IMG/VR virus record: IMGVR_UViG_3300046810_000572
Span: 1-33,555 of that record
DNA from: a virus
Length of the DNA: 33,555 bases
Reading direction: 5' to 3' (one strand)
Shown here: positions 4,138-21,098 of the stretch, piece by piece
Position numbering within the stretch: position 1 is the first letter of the stretch
How the letters are laid out: the number at the start of each line of letters is the position of its first letter
Made by a program: the position numbers and the translations under genes
The notes under the pieces: model-generated
Told to the model about the DNA's origin: nothing
Databases searched by the model: none
What the model saw: the letters and a program-made list of their open reading frames with translations, nothing else

Positions 4138-6387
4138 GTGCTGATGAATGCAAGAGGGCGTATCGCGCCCTCGCCACCACCTAAACTAATAAAAGCCGAC
4201 AAGGTTCCTTTTGTCGGCGCATACCCTTGGAATGCTCCCCGTCCTGCAATCTCAAAAGAAAGACTTCTTACCCGTGATGAATTCCATCAGGGGCAAGATG
4301 CCTTACGCAAGATCCACGCGCTGCCATTTTTTCTAAGTGGCATTTTCTCTGGCCGGTATGAATATCTTAAAGAAAGCTCAGGGCTGCTGGCTGCACATCG
4401 TTATCTCATCAATGTTTTTATGCCACGGATTTGGCCTCGCATCGAGGTTGTACAGACTAAATATGCGTTGGCCTTAAGTGGCAGAGCTAATGAAATTTTT
4501 ACTGATGAGGCTGAGAGTTATCGCCAGTTAGCTGGAATGAATGATAAAGCGCTGAAACGTCTCGCTATGCAAATTTCATCCCGGCTGTTCACAGAATATG
4601 AAGAGCAGAGCGATCGGCTTCTTAGTCAGCACAACGGGGTTCAAGCCAAGTTATTCACCGATAGCGCACAGCAGAAAATTTATGGTGAGGTTGCCGGTGC
4701 TGCCCGCGTTTTTAATATCACTCCAATGCACTGGCAAAAATACTGTAAACGCAAACTGGATATGCGCTCAGCGTTCTCCAGCATCGCGCGATTGGTAAAT
4801 GATGAGTGGTGGATTCGACAGTTAAAAGCGCAGCGCACTCAATGGCGCGAATCTCTCCTGATTGCTGTTGGCGAGGTTAGTCTGCAAAAGTCTGGCTATG
4901 CCAGCAAACAGGCTATCCGGGATGTTCGGGCGCGCCGCTTAGCAAACATGGAATATCTGAAATCCTGTGATTTAGAAAACATCGAAACAGGGGAACGTAT
5001 AGATCTCATCGATAAGGTAATGGGGAGTATTTCTAACCCTGAAATCCGTCGTATGGAGTTGATGAGCACTATTGCAGGAATTGAAAAATATGCCTCAGAA
5101 GTTGGTCATGTTGGCATGTTCCTCACGATAACCACACCGTCAAAATACCATCCAACACGCATGGTCGGGAAAAAGACTGATCGCCGCGTTAATTTCAATC
5201 ATAAGTGGGATGAAGAGGCGTTTTCACCAAAGGATGGCCAGCGCTATCTGGTGAAAATCTGGGGCAAGATGCGTACAGCATTCAAAGATAACGGCATCAA
5301 GGTATACGGAATGCGCGTAGTTGAGCCTCACCACGACGCTACACCTCACTGGCATATGATGTTGTTTTGCGATAAAGCTCACCGTCAGCCTGCCGTTGAC
5401 ATCATGCGTCGCTATGCACTCCAAGAAGATGGAGATGAACGTGGGGCACAAGCTCAGCGTTTTGAGTGTAAGCATTTAAATAAAGGCGGGGCGGCAGGCT
5501 ATATCGCTAAATACATAGCCAAGAATATTGATGGTTATGCTCTGGAAGGTGAGATAGACCATGAGACTGGCCGATCATTGTCAGAGACTGCCGCAGCCGT
5601 TACTGCATGGGCTTCTACATGGCGTATACCGCAATTTAAATCTATCGGTGTACCAACAATGGGAGCCTATCGCGAGCTGCGCAGATTGCCGCGTGGCGTG
5701 AGTATCGCTAGCGAGTTTGACGAACTTGTCGAAGCTGCAAGAGCAGCGGCAGACGGTGGTGATTTCGCCGCATATATTTCTGCGCAGGGTGGGGCGAATG
5801 TCCCACGCGATGAGCAAACGGTAAGAACTGCCCGCCAAGTGATTGATGAGTTAAACGAGTACGACGAAGAGATCCAGAAAATCATCGGCGTTTATGCCCC
5901 TCATCTTGGCACTGACCTCATCCACGAAACACGCACAACAAAATGGCGCATTGTCGCCAAGGCTGTTGAAGTTGCCGTTCATCCTTTGAATTTAATAAGC
6001 GCCTCCGGCGCGCCTCGGAGTCCTGTCAATAACTGTGGGAAGGTTCAGGCAGGGCTCGGGCTGTGTTTTCCTGCTACACCTTCTGAGTACGCCACTGCGG
6101 TGATAAAATTAGTTGCAAGCGGGAGTGTTGGGTGGGATGAGCCTGATGTTGCTAAGGTGCTGGGAGACGCTGCCAAAAAGCAATCGCCGCCAGTTAATCA
6201 TCGTCAGAAAAGTTTTGATCCGACTCAATCGCGTGATTTGGCCCCATCGGCACGGCTAACACCGAATGAAAAAGATAGGGTTAGGCACATAAAACAGAAA
6301 CTACAACAGAAGGGAATTATATTACCGAGATGGGAATTAGAGGCCATGGCACGCGGAGCAACAATGAATCCAACAATTTTTAATTAA
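4138..6387 (+). CDS. A: Replication initiator A (rolling-circle HUH endonuclease)
   Basis: Initiates rolling-circle (modified) replication by nicking the phage origin and staying covalently bound to the 5' end. The 749-aa product (P2 A has 761) belongs to the phage GPA family. The HUH metal-binding motif is H404-W-H406 in PHWHMMLF, and the paired catalytic tyrosines are Y455 and Y459 (GYIAKYI), the same Y-x3-Y spacing as P2 Tyr450/Tyr454. Long conserved stretches include GSISNPEIRRMELM and RIPQFKSIG. Translation probably starts at GTG 4138 or ATG 4144; neither has a strong Shine-Dalgarno, suggesting coupling to the upstream gene. The replication origin lies inside the coding sequence near 6010. 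P2 A acts mainly in cis. Confidence 0.96.
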   Translation: MLMNARGRIAPSPPPKLIKADKVPFVGAYPWNAPRPAISKERLLTRDEFHQGQDALRKIHALPFFLSGIFSGRYEYLKESSGLLAAHRYLINVFMPRIWPRIEVVQTKYALALSGRANEIFTDEAESYRQLAGMNDKALKRLAMQISSRLFTEYEEQSDRLLSQHNGVQAKLFTDSAQQKIYGEVAGAARVFNITPMHWQKYCKRKLDMRSAFSSIARLVNDEWWIRQLKAQRTQWRESLLIAVGEVSLQKSGYASKQAIRDVRARRLANMEYLKSCDLENIETGERIDLIDKVMGSISNPEIRRMELMSTIAGIEKYASEVGHVGMFLTITTPSKYHPTRMVGKKTDRRVNFNHKWDEEAFSPKDGQRYLVKIWGKMRTAFKDNGIKVYGMRVVEPHHDATPHWHMMLFCDKAHRQPAVDIMRRYALQEDGDERGAQAQRFECKHLNKGGAAGYIAKYIAKNIDGYALEGEIDHETGRSLSETAAAVTAWASTWRIPQFKSIGVPTMGAYRELRRLPRGVSIASEFDELVEAARAAADGGDFAAYISAQGGANVPRDEQTVRTARQVIDELNEYDEEIQKIIGVYAPHLGTDLIHETRTTKWRIVAKAVEVAVHPLNLISASGAPRSPVNNCGKVQAGLGLCFPATPSEYATAVIKLVASGSVGWDEPDVAKVLGDAAKKQSPPVNHRQKSFDPTQSRDLAPSARLTPNEKDRVRHIKQKLQQKGIILPRWELEAMARGATMNPTIFN
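6008..6036 (+). other. ori: Candidate replication origin (P2 ori) inside gene A
   Basis: Sequence around GCGCCTCGGAGTCCTGTCAA (6010-6029), in the 3' part of A where it encodes GAPRSPVNNCG. P2 ori is known to lie within gene A, and this core is, as I recall it, the conserved sequence around the P2 nick site. The base sequence is preserved here although flanking codons have diverged from P2, which argues for selection on the DNA as well as on the protein. Confidence 0.7.
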
Positions 6388-6526: not shown

Positions 6527-7453
6527 ATGCACGCTTTAGCGCCTTATCTGTTTCGTTGTTACAATCCTAATGCACCTCACGAGCAACGCTATTCAGCACT
6601 AAGTCAGATTAACAATAATGATTTGCTCGAAATATTGTTTAACTTCACGCAGCTGTATGAAAATAAATTTAACATTTCAGAAGTCACAAAGCAGGTTTTT
6701 AGGTTTAACGATATTACCTATGACAAAGAGAATAGGGAGATTTTTGGTTGGTTTGAATCTGGGTATTATGGGACTAAAACGGATATAATAAATATTGATT
6801 CTGGTTCGGTCGATTTCGAAAAAACCAAAAAAAATGCTGAAATAATCAAGTATTATATACACTTTTATATACCGAAAGGTGTTAATGAAGGAATGGCTTT
6901 CCTTCACACCTACAGGGGAGATGGAATAAAAACCCTTTTCATTAATTTGTTTTCTGAGTACTTTAAGAAAATTACCAAGTTAGTTATTCAGATGAATCCT
7001 CTTGCATACGACAAAGCAATAAATAAATGGCTCGATGCAGTTGCAAAAGAAATAAAAGTTACTAAATTTCAAGGGGTAACTGACCTTGCTGAGCAGGCTA
7101 AAATGCTTGGGCATAATGAACAAGAGTTAACAATAAAACCACCGAGAAATGGTGCTCTTGGAAAGCTTAGAGATTTTTTTTCAAAGCAAACTGAACAAGC
7201 AAAATTAGTTGAAGTTTTGAAAGGATATGGAGAATCAGTAAAAACAGTTGTTGAATTAAGTGATGGAAGAAAAAGAACATTTCATATCGGTACCAGTGTC
7301 AAAGGTGCAGTTTGCGAAATAGTTTTTGATGAAACACAGGTTGTTTTAAATGATGGTATGCCGGAAATTAATTCATTGAATCTTATGGTTGATTCAATAA
7401 TCCTTGAGTATAATGTACTGCTCTACCCAGGAATAAAATTAAGGAGGGCGTAA
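6527..7453 (+). CDS. Unrecognised soluble protein, first gene of A-cos cargo cassette
   Basis: 308-aa protein that I do not recognise. The start chosen is ATG 6527 (MHALAPYLFRCYNPN) with GGAG seven bases upstream; a longer reading from TTG 6452 has no good ribosome-binding site. There is no signal peptide or membrane helix. The N-terminal two thirds mix helices and aromatic-rich beta stretches (FGWFESGYYGTKTDIINID, IKYYIHFYIPKG). A basic linker follows (KPPRNGALGKLRDFFSKQ), then a C-terminal domain (about residues 225-308) of beta character containing VELSDGRKRTFHIG. Base composition is far more AT-rich than gene A. Its stop overlaps the start of the four-TM gene by one base, implying a coupled pair. 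By position it is probably phage-exclusion or defence cargo; that is inference. Confidence 0.75.
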   Translation: MHALAPYLFRCYNPNAPHEQRYSALSQINNNDLLEILFNFTQLYENKFNISEVTKQVFRFNDITYDKENREIFGWFESGYYGTKTDIINIDSGSVDFEKTKKNAEIIKYYIHFYIPKGVNEGMAFLHTYRGDGIKTLFINLFSEYFKKITKLVIQMNPLAYDKAINKWLDAVAKEIKVTKFQGVTDLAEQAKMLGHNEQELTIKPPRNGALGKLRDFFSKQTEQAKLVEVLKGYGESVKTVVELSDGRKRTFHIGTSVKGAVCEIVFDETQVVLNDGMPEINSLNLMVDSIILEYNVLLYPGIKLRRA

Positions 7454-8022
7454 TGAGCTCTAAGATAAATATTTGTGAAATTATAACTGGGCACTTTAGA
7501 ACTCTCAAAGACGCGGGTACTGATAAAGTTAGCATGTCAGACTTGTTAACTTTTGTTGTATTTCCCATTGCTTTATCGATTATTTTTGCTGTATTTGCAA
7601 ATGGTATGTCTAAAGATTTAGTATCATTACTGGTTAATTTTAGTGCAATATTAACTGCTCTATTATTGAGTGTGCTTGTTTTAGTTTATGATCAAGAGTC
7701 AAAAATAAGGCAAAATAAAGACAATGACATTTTTTTCGATTCTAAAAAAACTCTTTTAACTGAGCTTTATTACAATATTTGTTATTCAGTGTTATGTGGT
7801 GTTTTACTAGTTGCCTTGTGTTTTTTTAGCTCGTTATACCCCACAGGGTTAGATGGGTACATTTCCGGAATTAATCATCCAATAGTAATAGATAGGGTGG
7901 GTTTTGGTTTCAATTTTTACCGTTATTGTCTAAGCCCACTCATTATATTTTTTTGTGTTCATTTAATGCTTAATATAGTGATGATTGTAAAGAGAATGCA
8001 TTCCTTGCTGACGTTATCGTAA
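7453..8022 (+). CDS. Four-TM membrane protein, second gene of A-cos cargo cassette
   Basis: 189-aa integral membrane protein with predicted helices at about residues 31-49, 57-79, 105-128 and 158-180. A short charged loop (YDQESKIRQNKDNDIF) links the first and second pairs, and the N-terminal 30 residues are soluble. I do not recognise a family and see no catalytic residues. AAGGAG lies just before the start and the ATG shares a base with the previous gene's stop, so the two are translationally coupled. A soluble partner with a membrane partner is a common layout for abortive-infection systems (sensor plus membrane-disrupting effector), but nothing in the sequence proves it. Codon use is AT-rich like its neighbours. 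Confidence 0.75.
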   Translation: MSSKINICEIITGHFRTLKDAGTDKVSMSDLLTFVVFPIALSIIFAVFANGMSKDLVSLLVNFSAILTALLLSVLVLVYDQESKIRQNKDNDIFFDSKKTLLTELYYNICYSVLCGVLLVALCFFSSLYPTGLDGYISGINHPIVIDRVGFGFNFYRYCLSPLIIFFCVHLMLNIVMIVKRMHSLLTLS

Positions 8023-8138
8023 ATAAAAATGTAGGTAATTCTTTATGCTACTTAATACCGGGATTACGATTTTGTGCCGCGATTATTGTTGTAAAAAAAA
8101 CTACAAATAGAGGATAGTAAAATTTATAAGGGGGGGTG

Positions 8139-10424
8139 ATGATAAAAAATATAAATTTTTTGCGTGATTTTGGTATTTATGAAAATCATGACAATACTAA
8201 CTGTACTACATTTTCTAAATATAATTTAATTTATGGTTGGAACGGTGCTGGGAAGTCTACTTTAACAAAACTTTTTAAATGTATAGAAGATAAGAGTATA
8301 GACCAGTGTGGTTATTTGACGCCAAGATTTCAAATAGAATGTGATGATGGTGAAATAAAAGAGATAACAGAAAAAAATATTAGTAGTGCCTCAATGAATA
8401 TATTTACTTTTAACGCTGATTTTGTGAGAAAAAATATTGATTGGGATAGCTCTGTAAATAGTATTTTACTGATTGATAAAGATAAAATAGAAGATAGAAA
8501 AAGTCTTGTTGAATTAAAGCTGTCATATAAAAAATTGAGTGCACAATTAGATAAAGAGGTGCATCTTAAAAAAGATTTAGATAATGATATGCAGGCTTTT
8601 TTGACCAAGGCGGCAAGAAATATTAAAACTAACTTGCAAGTCATAAATACGCAAGAAAGACGGTACCTGAATTATAATAAAACCACTCTTTTTTCTCTAA
8701 TTAATTCTAAAAGAGAAAGTATTTTCAAAAGTGAATCATTGCTGCAAGATATCGAATTGGGTAGTTTAACAAGAGCGGCATTACCTATTGAAATGCCTAT
8801 TATTAACATGGACTTGCCAACTTTAAACATTGCTGATTTTGTTGAAAGGCATACTCAAATAAGCGCTATACTACACACTAGTGTGGCTAGTAATGTTATC
8901 CTTGCTTTAAGTGAAAATCCCAACATGCAGTCTTGGGTGGAAATGGGGCTTGCTCTTCACAAAGAAAACCATAGACAAAAGTGTGGTTTTTGTGGCGGGG
9001 ATATAAAAACCTCGCGAGTCAAAGAGCTTAATGACCATTTCAACGATGCGTTTAAAGCATTTAAAAAAACAATATCTAACTCTTTCTCTATCTGTTCTTT
9101 TATACCTCAACTAGCTTTACTTTCTAAAGATTTTTTCTTCCCAGAGTTTCAAGGTTCTTATATTGATTTAGTTGAGAAAATCAGGCTTGCCAGCAATGAG
9201 ATTAACCATTCATTAGGTGAGTGGCAGAGTGTTCTGACAAAAAAGAATGAAAATCCTTTTGAAACTTCATTTGTAATAAATGAAATTTCAATTGTAAGTT
9301 TAATGAGTTATAACACTCTAATTTCTGGAATTAAAAAATTAATTGATGACCACAATAGCAAGTCGCTTAATTTTTCGAATGAAATTACGAAAATTAAGAG
9401 TGCTTTAGAAGTCCACTATGCAGCTCGTGAATTGATTGATTTTAAATATGAAGAAAAAGAAAGGCAGAAGGGAATATATGTTGAGACAATAGATGAGCTT
9501 TTGAATTCGGAGAGAAATCTAAAAGATAGAATTGATACTCTTGAAGCGTCATTATCAAATGAGTCTATTGCGGAAAATGTTTTTAATAATGAATTGCATA
9601 GATTTTTAGGGCGAAGTGAAATTAGACTAAGTTTTGATGCGGTTATGAAAGGGTATAGAATAATAAGAAATGGAACTGATAAACACGCCAAGAATTTAAG
9701 TGAGGGTGAAAAAACGGCTATAGCTTTCGTTTATTTTGCAATAAAGGTTGATGAGGGAGATAATGATATAACTAAATCAATTATTGTCGTTGATGATCCT
9801 GTTTCTAGTTTTGATTCAAACCACCTATTTCATTCATATGCTTTCTTAAAAAAGAGATTTGAAAATGCGTGCCAGTTATTTATTCTAACACATAGTTTTT
9901 CTTATTTTAAGCTAGTGCGTGATTGGATTCTAAAAAAGAATAAAAGAGATAATATTAAATCTAGAGTTTATTTAATTGAAACATATATTGAAGGTGTTAG
10001 GAAAGCTAAGATCATAAATGCTTCAAGCAACCTTATTGATTATAATTCAGAGTATCATTACCTATACTCTCGCCTTAAATACTTTAAAGAGAAAGCTCAC
10101 TTAGAGCTTGATGAAGTATATTTGTGTGCAAACTTATCAAGAAAATTGCTAGAAACTTTTTTATCTTTCAAATTTCCTAAAAAAAGGAGCAATTTCAAAG
10201 CACTTGTTGATGATAGTGTGAGAAATTTGGAAGGTGTAAATCAGGAAGAGGTTGAAAAACTTTATAGATTTATAAATAAATATTCACATAATCAGGAGAT
10301 CGATATGGGAGATAACACTGATAATTTGCTAGGTGAATCGCCTGTGATAATAAAGTATCTATTTACTCTGATAGAAAGCTTTGATTCAGTGCACTTTGCC
10401 GAAATGGAGTCATTGGCAGTTTAG
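8139..10424 (+). CDS. RloC/PrrC-like ABC ATPase, candidate anticodon nuclease
   Basis: 761-aa AAA_13-type protein with an SMC/Rad50-like layout. Walker A is GWNGAGKST at 33-41 (K39). A long coiled-coil-rich middle (about 110-480) carries a single CxxC (C282-G-F-C285), placed like a Rad50/RloC zinc hook. The ABC signature LSEGE is at 520-524, Walker B IIVVDD at 548-553, the D-loop SSFDS at 556-560 and the switch histidine in FILTH at H585. The C-terminal domain has R668-x3-E672 and H717, matching the order of the Arg-Glu-His triad of the PrrC/RloC tRNA anticodon nucleases; R-to-H spacing is 49 here and 36 in PrrC. Start: ATG 8139 after a GGGGGGG tract (GTG 8136 also possible). It follows the four-TM gene by about 115 bp. 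Likely anti-phage; the tRNA target is unknown. Confidence 0.85.
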   Translation: MIKNINFLRDFGIYENHDNTNCTTFSKYNLIYGWNGAGKSTLTKLFKCIEDKSIDQCGYLTPRFQIECDDGEIKEITEKNISSASMNIFTFNADFVRKNIDWDSSVNSILLIDKDKIEDRKSLVELKLSYKKLSAQLDKEVHLKKDLDNDMQAFLTKAARNIKTNLQVINTQERRYLNYNKTTLFSLINSKRESIFKSESLLQDIELGSLTRAALPIEMPIINMDLPTLNIADFVERHTQISAILHTSVASNVILALSENPNMQSWVEMGLALHKENHRQKCGFCGGDIKTSRVKELNDHFNDAFKAFKKTISNSFSICSFIPQLALLSKDFFFPEFQGSYIDLVEKIRLASNEINHSLGEWQSVLTKKNENPFETSFVINEISIVSLMSYNTLISGIKKLIDDHNSKSLNFSNEITKIKSALEVHYAARELIDFKYEEKERQKGIYVETIDELLNSERNLKDRIDTLEASLSNESIAENVFNNELHRFLGRSEIRLSFDAVMKGYRIIRNGTDKHAKNLSEGEKTAIAFVYFAIKVDEGDNDITKSIIVVDDPVSSFDSNHLFHSYAFLKKRFENACQLFILTHSFSYFKLVRDWILKKNKRDNIKSRVYLIETYIEGVRKAKIINASSNLIDYNSEYHYLYSRLKYFKEKAHLELDEVYLCANLSRKLLETFLSFKFPKKRSNFKALVDDSVRNLEGVNQEEVEKLYRFINKYSHNQEIDMGDNTDNLLGESPVIIKYLFTLIESFDSVHFAEMESLAV

Positions 10425-10807: not shown

Positions 10808-11818
10808 TTAAAGCTCATACTCGTTGAACCTTACCACCTCCATACCTGCCCACTCGTTTAACTCTTTCATGCGCTCCTGTAAGGGAACCAGTTCATTGCG
10901 CACAAATACCTTTGCTGCTTTCTCTACGTCACCAAATCCGCCGGTGTTGTCCGGGATAATCCCCATCATCTGCGGCGGTACACGGTGAGCGCTGAGCAGA
11001 TCATCACGCGTGGCTTTCTTGATGTTAAAGAAATCATCTTTCGTGGCCACCTCGCTGAGCGGGATGATTTTAATAGCGTCCGCTTTTCCACCGGGTGCAT
11101 GGTAGAAAATATTTTTAAAATTACCTGAGCCCTTAGATTTGGTCATCATGTCGCGCAGAGCAGTGACATCCTGAGAGTTTTGCGCCGGGTCAGTCACGTA
11201 CATGACATAACCCGCATGAGCGCCGTTGAGGAAATACTTGCGGCGATACAGGGTGGCGGACTCATTGAGCCACGCGCTGTTTAACGCGCTGAGGTATTCC
11301 GGCAAGCCGTACAATTCCTGATTAATGTCTGGCTCTTGCAGGTGGAATACGCCCCCCTGGCTAAACGCGTGCGGGGTGGTAAAGTCTTCCACGAACCAGT
11401 AGACATCATCCTCAATGCCGCGCCGTGTATATTTGGCCGGTGAGGTCTCAAGCCTGAGCAGTTTGCCCGTCACGCTCATGCGCTTCTCAATGAACGCATT
11501 ACCAAAAACAATATAATCCAGCGCGTAACGGCTAAATTGATGCTGTGAAAGCATCGGGTGCGGGATAAACGTGCTGGCCAGAATGTTGCGCTTAACGTAC
11601 ATCGGCGAGCTGTGATGAACGGCGGCGCGAAAGCTTTTAGCCAGCCCGGAGAACGTCACCGGCGGTTCGTACCACTTCCCGTTACTCATGCACTCCAGAT
11701 AATTGAGAATGTCGCGCCTGTCCATCACCGTTGCCGGTTCATCAAAGCGGAAAATCTCGCTTTTCTGCGTGTCATTTTGCGCTGTCAGTTTTTTTGCCCT
11801 GCGGTTTCGTTTGCTCAT
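10808..11818 (-). CDS. Q: Portal protein Q
   Basis: Forms the dodecameric portal through which DNA is packaged and to which the tail attaches. The 336-aa product (P2 Q has 344) shows the phage_portal_2 (PBSX-like) pattern: an N-terminal YEPPVTFSGLAKSFRAAVHH, a central LDYIVFGNAFIEK and HLQEPDINQELYGLPEYLSALNSA region, and the C-terminal RVPPQMMGIIPDNTGGFGDVEKAAKVF motif. Transcribed leftward; the ATG is one base from the stop of P, so P and Q form a two-gene late operon started from the P/O intergenic region. Confidence 0.96.
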   Translation of the reverse strand: MSKRNRRAKKLTAQNDTQKSEIFRFDEPATVMDRRDILNYLECMSNGKWYEPPVTFSGLAKSFRAAVHHSSPMYVKRNILASTFIPHPMLSQHQFSRYALDYIVFGNAFIEKRMSVTGKLLRLETSPAKYTRRGIEDDVYWFVEDFTTPHAFSQGGVFHLQEPDINQELYGLPEYLSALNSAWLNESATLYRRKYFLNGAHAGYVMYVTDPAQNSQDVTALRDMMTKSKGSGNFKNIFYHAPGGKADAIKIIPLSEVATKDDFFNIKKATRDDLLSAHRVPPQMMGIIPDNTGGFGDVEKAAKVFVRNELVPLQERMKELNEWAGMEVVRFNEYEL

Positions 11819-19621: not shown

Positions 19622-20182
19622 ATGTCGTACAAAAATGGAAACTACTGCGCTTTTTATGTTGCATCGCCTTTTAATGAATCCTCCTTAGGTGCACATGCTA
19701 CTAAAGATTTTGTATTTTATAGTATGTTAAAAGCATGGAAAGGTGCCGATTCAACATTCCCATTTAATAACTCACATGACAAGACATATAATGTGCGCGA
19801 TGGCAGTGACTGGGAGGCAACGTTAAAACCGAGGTTAAGGGAAAGACTAAGTAATTCAAAGAATATAATTCTCTTCCTAAGTGATAGGACGATAAGTTCT
19901 TTAGCATTAAGAGAAGAAATTGATTACGGGATAAATACACTTGGACTTCCGGTAATAGTTGTTTATCCAGACTATAGTTCAGAAGAGGATCTTTTGTCTG
20001 ATGGCTCACTTAAGCAGGAGGTCAAAGATCTCTGGAATAAACTTCCAGTTTTTCGGGATTCTAAGAATGCCGTTCCAACATTGCATATCCCCATGAACAA
20101 GGCAACTATAACTAAAGCATTAAATAATTCCGACTTTATGGTTGGTAGTAAAACAAAAGAAGATACATATATATACAAGTAA
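19622..20182 (+). CDS. thsB: TIR-domain signalling enzyme, ThsB-like (Thoeris)
   Basis: 186-aa protein of the Thoeris ThsB/TIR-like (DUF1863) type, which on phage infection converts NAD+ into an ADP-ribose-derived signal. Visible family landmarks: AFYVASPFNES near the start, a MLKAWKGADSTFPFNNSHD segment, YNVRDGSDWEATLKPRLRERLSNSKNIILFLS (split here: SDWE and the SKNIILFLSD strand), and ALREEIDYGI with E99 at the place of the catalytic TIR glutamate (WEI-type motif), followed by the LPVIVVYP strand. Start ATG 19622 has GGAG nine bases upstream. AT-rich and foreign to the backbone. It lies 76 bp before a 2TM-macro protein, the partner expected for type II Thoeris. Confidence 0.85.
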   Translation: MSYKNGNYCAFYVASPFNESSLGAHATKDFVFYSMLKAWKGADSTFPFNNSHDKTYNVRDGSDWEATLKPRLRERLSNSKNIILFLSDRTISSLALREEIDYGINTLGLPVIVVYPDYSSEEDLLSDGSLKQEVKDLWNKLPVFRDSKNAVPTLHIPMNKATITKALNNSDFMVGSKTKEDTYIYK

Positions 20183-20210
20183 AACTCTAAATAGAATATA
20201 AATCAATCAT

Positions 20211-20244
20211 CACATGCAACTTTACTTTAATAAAGTTGCATGTG
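20211..20244. repeat. Perfect 14-bp inverted repeat between TIR and macro genes
   Basis: CACATGCAACTTTA at 20211-20224 is exactly complementary to TAAAGTTGCATGTG at 20231-20244, with a CTTTAA loop. No T-run follows on either strand, so it is not a classical terminator. It could be an attenuator or mRNA-stability hairpin tuning the ratio of the two products, or an operator. Confidence 0.8.
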
Positions 20245-20261
20245 GAATATAAGGTTTTATG

Positions 20262-21098
20262 ATGAATAAAGTTAAGTTTTTTGATGTGCGCGTGCGTGAG
20301 AAATTTATAAGATACGCATCTGCCATTACAGGATTTATTGCTGCTGCTGTTATTTTTATCGATATACCAACTAAGTATAAGATTGCATCGGGAGTTTTTT
20401 TGGTTTTTGTTTTAGCGATTTCTTATTACTATTTCTGGCGTGAGGCTAATAAGTTAAAGGCCATAACATTAAAAGTAGAGGGGAGTACGGTAAATATAAC
20501 GACAGGTGACATCTTCAAGGCTGAAGGTTTTAAGGTCATTGCATTCAATGAATATTTTGACACGCTTGTTGACGAGAAAGTTATATCAAGTAAAAGTCTT
20601 AATGGGATTTTTTTGAAAAAACACCTCCCGTGTACATTGGTAGAACTGGATCAATATATAGAAGCCTATGACTTCGATGAAGATGAATTTATAGAGGAAA
20701 ATAAAGGGAGAAGGCAAGGGAAAACGAGGAAATACCAAATCGGTACTCTCTGTGTTTATGAGGACTATCTTATGGCTGCTTTTTCAAAGTTTGATGATAA
20801 AAATCAAGCTCGTTTAACCATGCCTGAATACTTAGAGTTCCTCATTAATTTTTGGGATAAGGTAAATAAAGTTTATGCACAAAGAAGTGTTTCTGTTCCG
20901 ATATTTGGTTCTGGAATCACTCGCATAAAGGAACATAAAAATATAACGGATGAGGAACTACTTAAGATAATGCTTTGGACATTTCGCATAAGTGAAATGC
21001 GATTTAAACACCCAGCAAAATTAACAATAGTGATCCATGAGGATAAAATAGATATGATAAATCTTCTGGACTTAAAATCTGCAAGAAATGGATTGTAG
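20262..21098 (+). CDS. thsA: 2TM-macro effector, type II ThsA-like (Thoeris)
   Basis: 278-aa protein (ATG 20262 with AAGG seven bases upstream; ATG 20259 also possible). Two N-terminal TM helices at about 18-36 and 40-59 are followed by a macro-like domain from about residue 68: a TVNITTGDIFKAEGFKVIAFNEYFDT start (GDIF and FN-EYFDT are the ligand-loop landmarks) and a glycine-loop motif VPIFGSGITRI at about 212-222. Known type II Thoeris effectors have this TM-TM-macro layout, with the macro domain sensing the TIR-made nucleotide (His-ADPR) and the membrane part killing or arresting the cell. The pairing with the adjacent TIR gene is the main support. Low GC, no phage structural role expected. 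Confidence 0.82.
   Translation: MNKVKFFDVRVREKFIRYASAITGFIAAAVIFIDIPTKYKIASGVFLVFVLAISYYYFWREANKLKAITLKVEGSTVNITTGDIFKAEGFKVIAFNEYFDTLVDEKVISSKSLNGIFLKKHLPCTLVELDQYIEAYDFDEDEFIEENKGRRQGKTRKYQIGTLCVYEDYLMAAFSKFDDKNQARLTMPEYLEFLINFWDKVNKVYAQRSVSVPIFGSGITRIKEHKNITDEELLKIMLWTFRISEMRFKHPAKLTIVIHEDKIDMINLLDLKSARNGL

Follow-up and report, generated by a model that had tools for sequence, protein, structure and literature searches.

A predicted RloC-type anticodon nuclease gene in the A-Q cargo slot of a P2/186-like phage

The A-Q interval and its gene content

The 33,555-base virus record analysed here over its whole length (hereafter, the window) is a P2/186-like phage, and parts of its structural region are about 75% identical to Escherichia phage 186 and related records. 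Between the genes for the replication protein gpA and the portal protein gpQ, the phage carries an intact ORF coding for a 761-aa protein (Table 1), for which an in-frame GTG at position 8136, immediately 5' of the ATG, represents an alternative start; a GUG start was likewise reported in some members of the RloC family (13 of 70, PMC2610378). The gpA-gpQ interval of P2 is a validated defence hotspot (Rousset et al. 2022, PMC9122126), and the RloC-type gene holds the same position as the cargo of that hotspot; the name RloC does not occur in the main text of PMC9122126. The G+C content of the gene is 30.8%, as compared with 54.2% for the phage from gpQ rightward, and the cargo as a whole (6527–10424) lies at 31–33%. 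The gene is of foreign base composition and is probably defence cargo of the A-Q hotspot. No tRNA gene was found in the window, and no DNA match to the RloC-type gene was retrieved from E. coli genomes.

Upstream of the gene lies a two-gene cassette (window 6527–8022, plus strand), composed of genes 6527–7453, probably starting at the ATG at 6527, and 7453–8022, and coding for a protein of about 308 aa and a 189-aa protein with about four membrane segments, respectively. Neither gene showed a Pfam match above cut-off or a NCBIfam or PADLOC family, and no close relatives of the upstream protein were found among viral contigs. The pair recurs in Acinetobacter plasmids and in Pseudomonas phage PfAC16, whose version of the first gene is 46% identical. 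Adjacency on the same strand and a similarly low G+C content (33, 31 and 31%) might indicate that the RloC-type gene and this pair together form a three-gene system. Such an arrangement is quite improbable, since the pair occurs without any RloC gene in the flanks examined of the Pf phage and the Acinetobacter plasmids, neither upstream gene stands beside any other RloC-family locus searched, and about 115 bases separate the pair from the RloC-type gene.

Table 1. Features of the A-Q interval and of the 761-aa protein, with window coordinates.
Feature	Position	Strand	Evidence
Phage gpA replication protein, left hotspot border	4138–6387	+	Pfam Phage_GPA, 3e-103
RloC-type ABC-ATPase/anticodon-nuclease gene (predicted)	8139–10424	+	761 aa plus stop; intact ORF
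Walker A YGWNGAGKST, residues 32–41	8232–8261	+	G38 and K39 in 140/140
Helical insert splitting the ATPase head, about residues 114–490	8478–9608	+	AlphaFold2 model
H274, possible extra zinc ligand before CxxC	8958–8960	+	55/55 closer set, 32/85 distant set
CxxC hook motif C282-G-F-C285	8982–8993	+	Both Cys in 140/140
H300, possible extra zinc ligand after CxxC	9036–9038	+	47/55 closer set
ABC signature LSEGEK, residues 520–525	9696–9713	+	S521 139/140, G523 140/140, E524 139/140
Walker B and D-loop IIVVDDPVSSFDS, residues 548–560	9780–9818	+	D552, D553, P554 and S557 in 140/140
Switch TH, T584-H585	9888–9893	+	H585 in 140/140
C-terminal ACNase (HEPN-like) region, predicted, residues 606–761	9954–10421	+	Aligns with PrrC C-domain; weak HEPN fold matches
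Predicted catalytic Arg R668 (PrrC R320)	10140–10142	+	Arg in 138/140; profile alignment
Predicted catalytic Glu E672 (PrrC E324)	10152–10154	+	130 Glu and 9 Asp of 140; profile alignment
Predicted catalytic His H717 (PrrC H356), preceded by S716	10287–10289	+	121/140; 55/55 closer set; alignment
Phage portal gpQ, right hotspot border	10808–11818	-	Pfam Phage_portal, 3.1e-17

Architecture and conserved motifs

Full-length matches of the 761-aa protein were found with the PADLOC candidate PDC-S06 (9.5e-164) and with Pfam AAA_13 (1.1e-135, residues 11–742), both being database groupings without a stated mechanism. The PADLOC PrrC model did not match the protein, and matched 9 of the 11 members of a first alignment. 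No solved structure was matched in a single-sequence PDB search. Relatives were gathered from plasmids, genomes and viral contigs, and 140 full-length sequences from diverse phyla were retained and split into a closer (n = 55) and a distant (n = 85) set.

The ORF had been described in an earlier note as containing a complete ABC ATPase set, a single CxxC resembling the Rad50/RloC zinc hook and, in the C-terminal domain, an Arg/Glu/His triad in the order of PrrC. The ATPase set, which RloC has in common with PrrC and Rad50, was borne out: Walker A and Walker B/D-loop, the signature and the switch His are all present, the core residues being kept in 139–140 of the 140 relatives. In the full-length AlphaFold2 model (mean pLDDT 89.2), the ATPase head is split by a long helical insert, with long helices at residues 114–167, 335–371, 385–410, 412–435 and 437–472, and a helical C-domain is present. 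Exactly one CxxC, out of 9 cysteines in total, occurs in the protein, and its likeness to the zinc hook held as well: when a profile of the apex was compared with PDB sequences, the zinc hook of Rad50 (1l8d) ranked first (E 0.008), and the alignment keeps the CxxC in register.

The C-terminal motif R668-x3-E672-x44-H717, with S716 preceding the His, also stands as claimed, and its columns are kept across the 140 relatives. In the closer set R668 and H717 are invariant (n = 55), and the position of S716 is Ser in 119 of the 140 sequences. Taken alone the motifs are weak evidence: R-x3-E-x36-52-H appeared in 15% of shuffles of the last 141 residues (1.6% when SH was required), and a CxxC anywhere in 9% of whole-protein shuffles. 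Because the columns are conserved in 140 relatives, however, the motifs are not a product of chance, and the observation of triad, CxxC and ATPase motifs in ORF 8139–10424 is confirmed as real. In the AlphaFold2 model of the C-domain (pLDDT 91.7, pTM 0.81), R668 and E672 are predicted to lie one turn apart in helix 657–678, and H717 immediately after helix 702–716.

The catalytic His is absent at the aligned position in 19 of the 140 relatives, all from the distant set (L003:2929-5190, L075, L077, L082, L132, L135 and others), which occupy a small region of the tree with two changes; one of them, from a Streptococcus phage, carries the annotation 'translation-disabling ACNase RloC'. These His-less relatives, together with a whole-model fold search in which most hits were heads of Rad50, SMC, cohesin and condensin, could suggest a Rad50/SMC-like protein that binds DNA ends and whose C-domain is inactive or vestigial. 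This reading is very hard to sustain here, given that all three catalytic residues are intact and that no sequence of the closer set lacks the His.

Two further conserved residues, H274 and H300, flank the CxxC. The C-x14-H spacing is fixed in all 70 relatives having H300; both His are found in 68 relatives, neither in 51 and one only in 21, this distribution containing few independent pairs on the tree. Since the two residues flank the CxxC, an intrachain zinc site (H274-x7-C282-x2-C285-x14-H300) can be envisaged, and in this RloC branch the CxxC might not be, or not only be, an intermolecular hook of the Rad50 type; we put this forward tentatively, regarding it as possible but rather doubtful. 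If true, a zinc/redox switch silencing the nuclease would act within one subunit, as opposed to the proposed hook-dimer model of RloC, and the zinc site would be a novel element of this RloC member.

Relationship to PrrC and RloC

As a PrrC reference, recovered through an Erwinia locus and then E. coli genomes, we used an E. coli protein (L204) of 396 aa, annotated as anticodon nuclease, encoded in the order hsdM-hsdS-prrC-hsdR and having R320, E324 and H356 at the triad positions of the literature. HHalign of the family profile against this PrrC gave a probability of 97.7% (E 2.3e-12), pairing S716-H717 with S355-H356. A second profile (97.0%, 9e-11) paired NLSRKLLETFLSF with TLLRNLYEKTASF, thus R668 with R320 and E672 with E324, and RFINKYSH with RIINFTSH. 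The alignment proposed in the earlier note as a check therefore places the C-terminal residues on the PrrC triad in two profile alignments and with no manual adjustment, and we equate R668, E672 and H717 with R320, E324 and H356 on this basis. The comparison of the C-domain profile with the PrrC C-domain profile alone was unconvincing (probability 2.9%), so that the case for homology depends on the profile of the whole protein. Judged from these alignments, the 761-aa protein is a distant sequence homologue of PrrC, with which it has in common the ABC-ATPase and the C-terminal triad. It differs in size and insert (761 aa with the insert, PrrC being about 341–416 aa without a CX2C insert), in the longer R-to-H gap, and in its neighbours, which are gpA, the gene pair and gpQ, whereas PrrC is joined to a type Ic hsd locus, as seen in L204.

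PrrC and RloC have been assigned to the HEPN superfamily (PMC3710099). No match below 0.001 was obtained in a PDB fold search with the C-domain; the matches with the highest probability were HEPN structures (4nqf, 8xeh, 8pcw and 7bxo), all non-significant (E 0.9–3.9). HEPN proteins are all-helical bundles carrying an Rx4-6H motif; the C-domain of the 761-aa protein is modelled as helical and has R710-x6-H717, and an Arg is found 6, 7 or 8 residues ahead of the His in 81 of 121 His-bearing relatives. The weak fold matches of the modelled domain agree with the published HEPN assignment without proving it. APECO1_4465, of a prophage ABC-HEPN group (PMC3710099), was not found in one 50-kb stretch of APEC O1.

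RloC proteins are defined by PrrC-like ABC motifs, a helical insert with CX2C, a length of 658–897 aa and the triad R-X3-E-X36-52-H, with a Ser often preceding the His (PMC2610378). All of these are found in the 761-aa protein, whose ABC-ATPase is split by a helical CX2C insert as in the RloC proteins of Geobacillus kaustophilus (GkaRloC) and Acinetobacter baylyi (AbaRloC) (PMC2610378, PMC3874168), whose size falls inside the family range and whose triad includes S716; homology with PrrC adds to them, and R-M genes are absent alongside the gene, as described for RloC. The triad alignment with PrrC and the Rad50-hook match of the CxxC apex likewise support the PrrC/RloC family call of the earlier note. 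On these sequence grounds, the protein is a well-supported further member of RloC, a known family and not a new type of system. Two differences stand out: the gene occupies the cargo slot of a P2-like phage, and the conserved H274 and H300 flanking the CxxC are not mentioned in the available parts of PMC2610378 and PMC3874168. A search for the fingerprint of GkaRloC (C288, C291, R692, E696, H737) among the collected loci, part of which came from some 400 genomes belonging to a single order, retrieved no locus with at least two of the three triad positions.

The R-to-H distance had been proposed to point to a different subclass or substrate. The values themselves, 49 here and 36 in PrrC, were correct when checked on R320/E324/H356 of E. 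coli PrrC. The proposal is not borne out by the RloC definition (E-X36-52-H), by GkaRloC, where the triad R692/E696/H737 has an R-to-H distance of 45 (PMC2610378), or by the relatives: the E-to-H gap (44 in our protein) is X36–X46 in those with a full triad, except for two outliers (49 and 54), and the R-to-H gap is 40–50 in nearly all of them. The spacing argument was therefore rejected; as every sequence feature of RloC is present, the E-to-H gap included, the spacing is no pointer to a new subclass.

Proposed function and occurrence of RloC-type genes

RloC is characterized as a DNA-activated, Zn-responsive tRNase that excises the wobble nucleotide. Mutation of any triad residue of GkaRloC (R692, E696, H737) abolished activity, while C288G or C291G enhanced it (PMC2610378). 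GkaRloC requires linear DNA and ATP hydrolysis, RloC is activated by inducers of breaks, and AbaRloC cleaves tRNA-Glu and tRNA-Gln (PMC3874168). We consider it highly likely that the gene codes for a RloC-type anticodon nuclease, carried as cargo in the A-Q slot of a P2/186-like prophage, whose DNA-triggered, ATPase-gated tRNA cutting would abort infection; the DNA trigger, ATPase gating, tRNA cleavage and wobble excision are taken over from GkaRloC and AbaRloC. The ABC-ATPase head and the coiled-coil/CxxC arm would keep the HEPN-like RNase at the C-terminus inactive. Once an incoming phage exposes linear DNA ends or breaks, ATP hydrolysis would turn the RNase on, R668, E672 and H717 would cleave a single tRNA or a small number of tRNAs within the anticodon loop, probably with removal of the wobble nucleotide, and translation would stop, aborting the infection.

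Alternatively, the protein could be an ABC-HEPN nuclease with this architecture that acts on another RNA (mRNA, rRNA or a different tRNA region); it would then be related to RloC by descent without being an anticodon nuclease. HEPN domains do cleave many RNAs (PMC3710099), and the closest relative among those compared is only 43% identical. We nevertheless hold a different substrate to be unlikely, as the triad is common to PrrC and fits the RloC definition, and the characterized members named in PMC3710099 and PMC3874168 (EcoPrrC, GkaRloC and AbaRloC) cleave anticodon loops.

The preferred reading, an anticodon nuclease, would put a tRNase predicted to shut down translation into the principal defence slot of P2-like phages. 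Relatives adjoin gpQ or sit between A and Q in six P2-like contigs (L099, L100, L107, L113, L127 and L165), and on the relatives' tree four or more changes of the P2-slot label are required along well-supported branches, most simply explained by several separate arrivals of RloC-type genes in the slot. A role of RloC in phage exclusion has been proposed more than tested, as far as the available parts of the RloC literature go, and a compact, single-gene RloC of prophage origin would be a handy system for testing it.

Elsewhere in the window a complete-looking Thoeris pair was detected (19622–21098, plus strand), formed by a TIR-like ThsB (19622–20182; PADLOC 3.7e-77) and a Macro-domain ThsA (20259–21098; PADLOC 3.4e-123), so that, with the RloC-type gene, at least two predicted defence systems are carried by one phage. 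RloC-type genes are also common on plasmids, with matches in 233 PLSDB records, 155 of which are conjugative; on one plasmid (L012) the gene follows an ArdC-like gene and adjoins DNA methylase genes.
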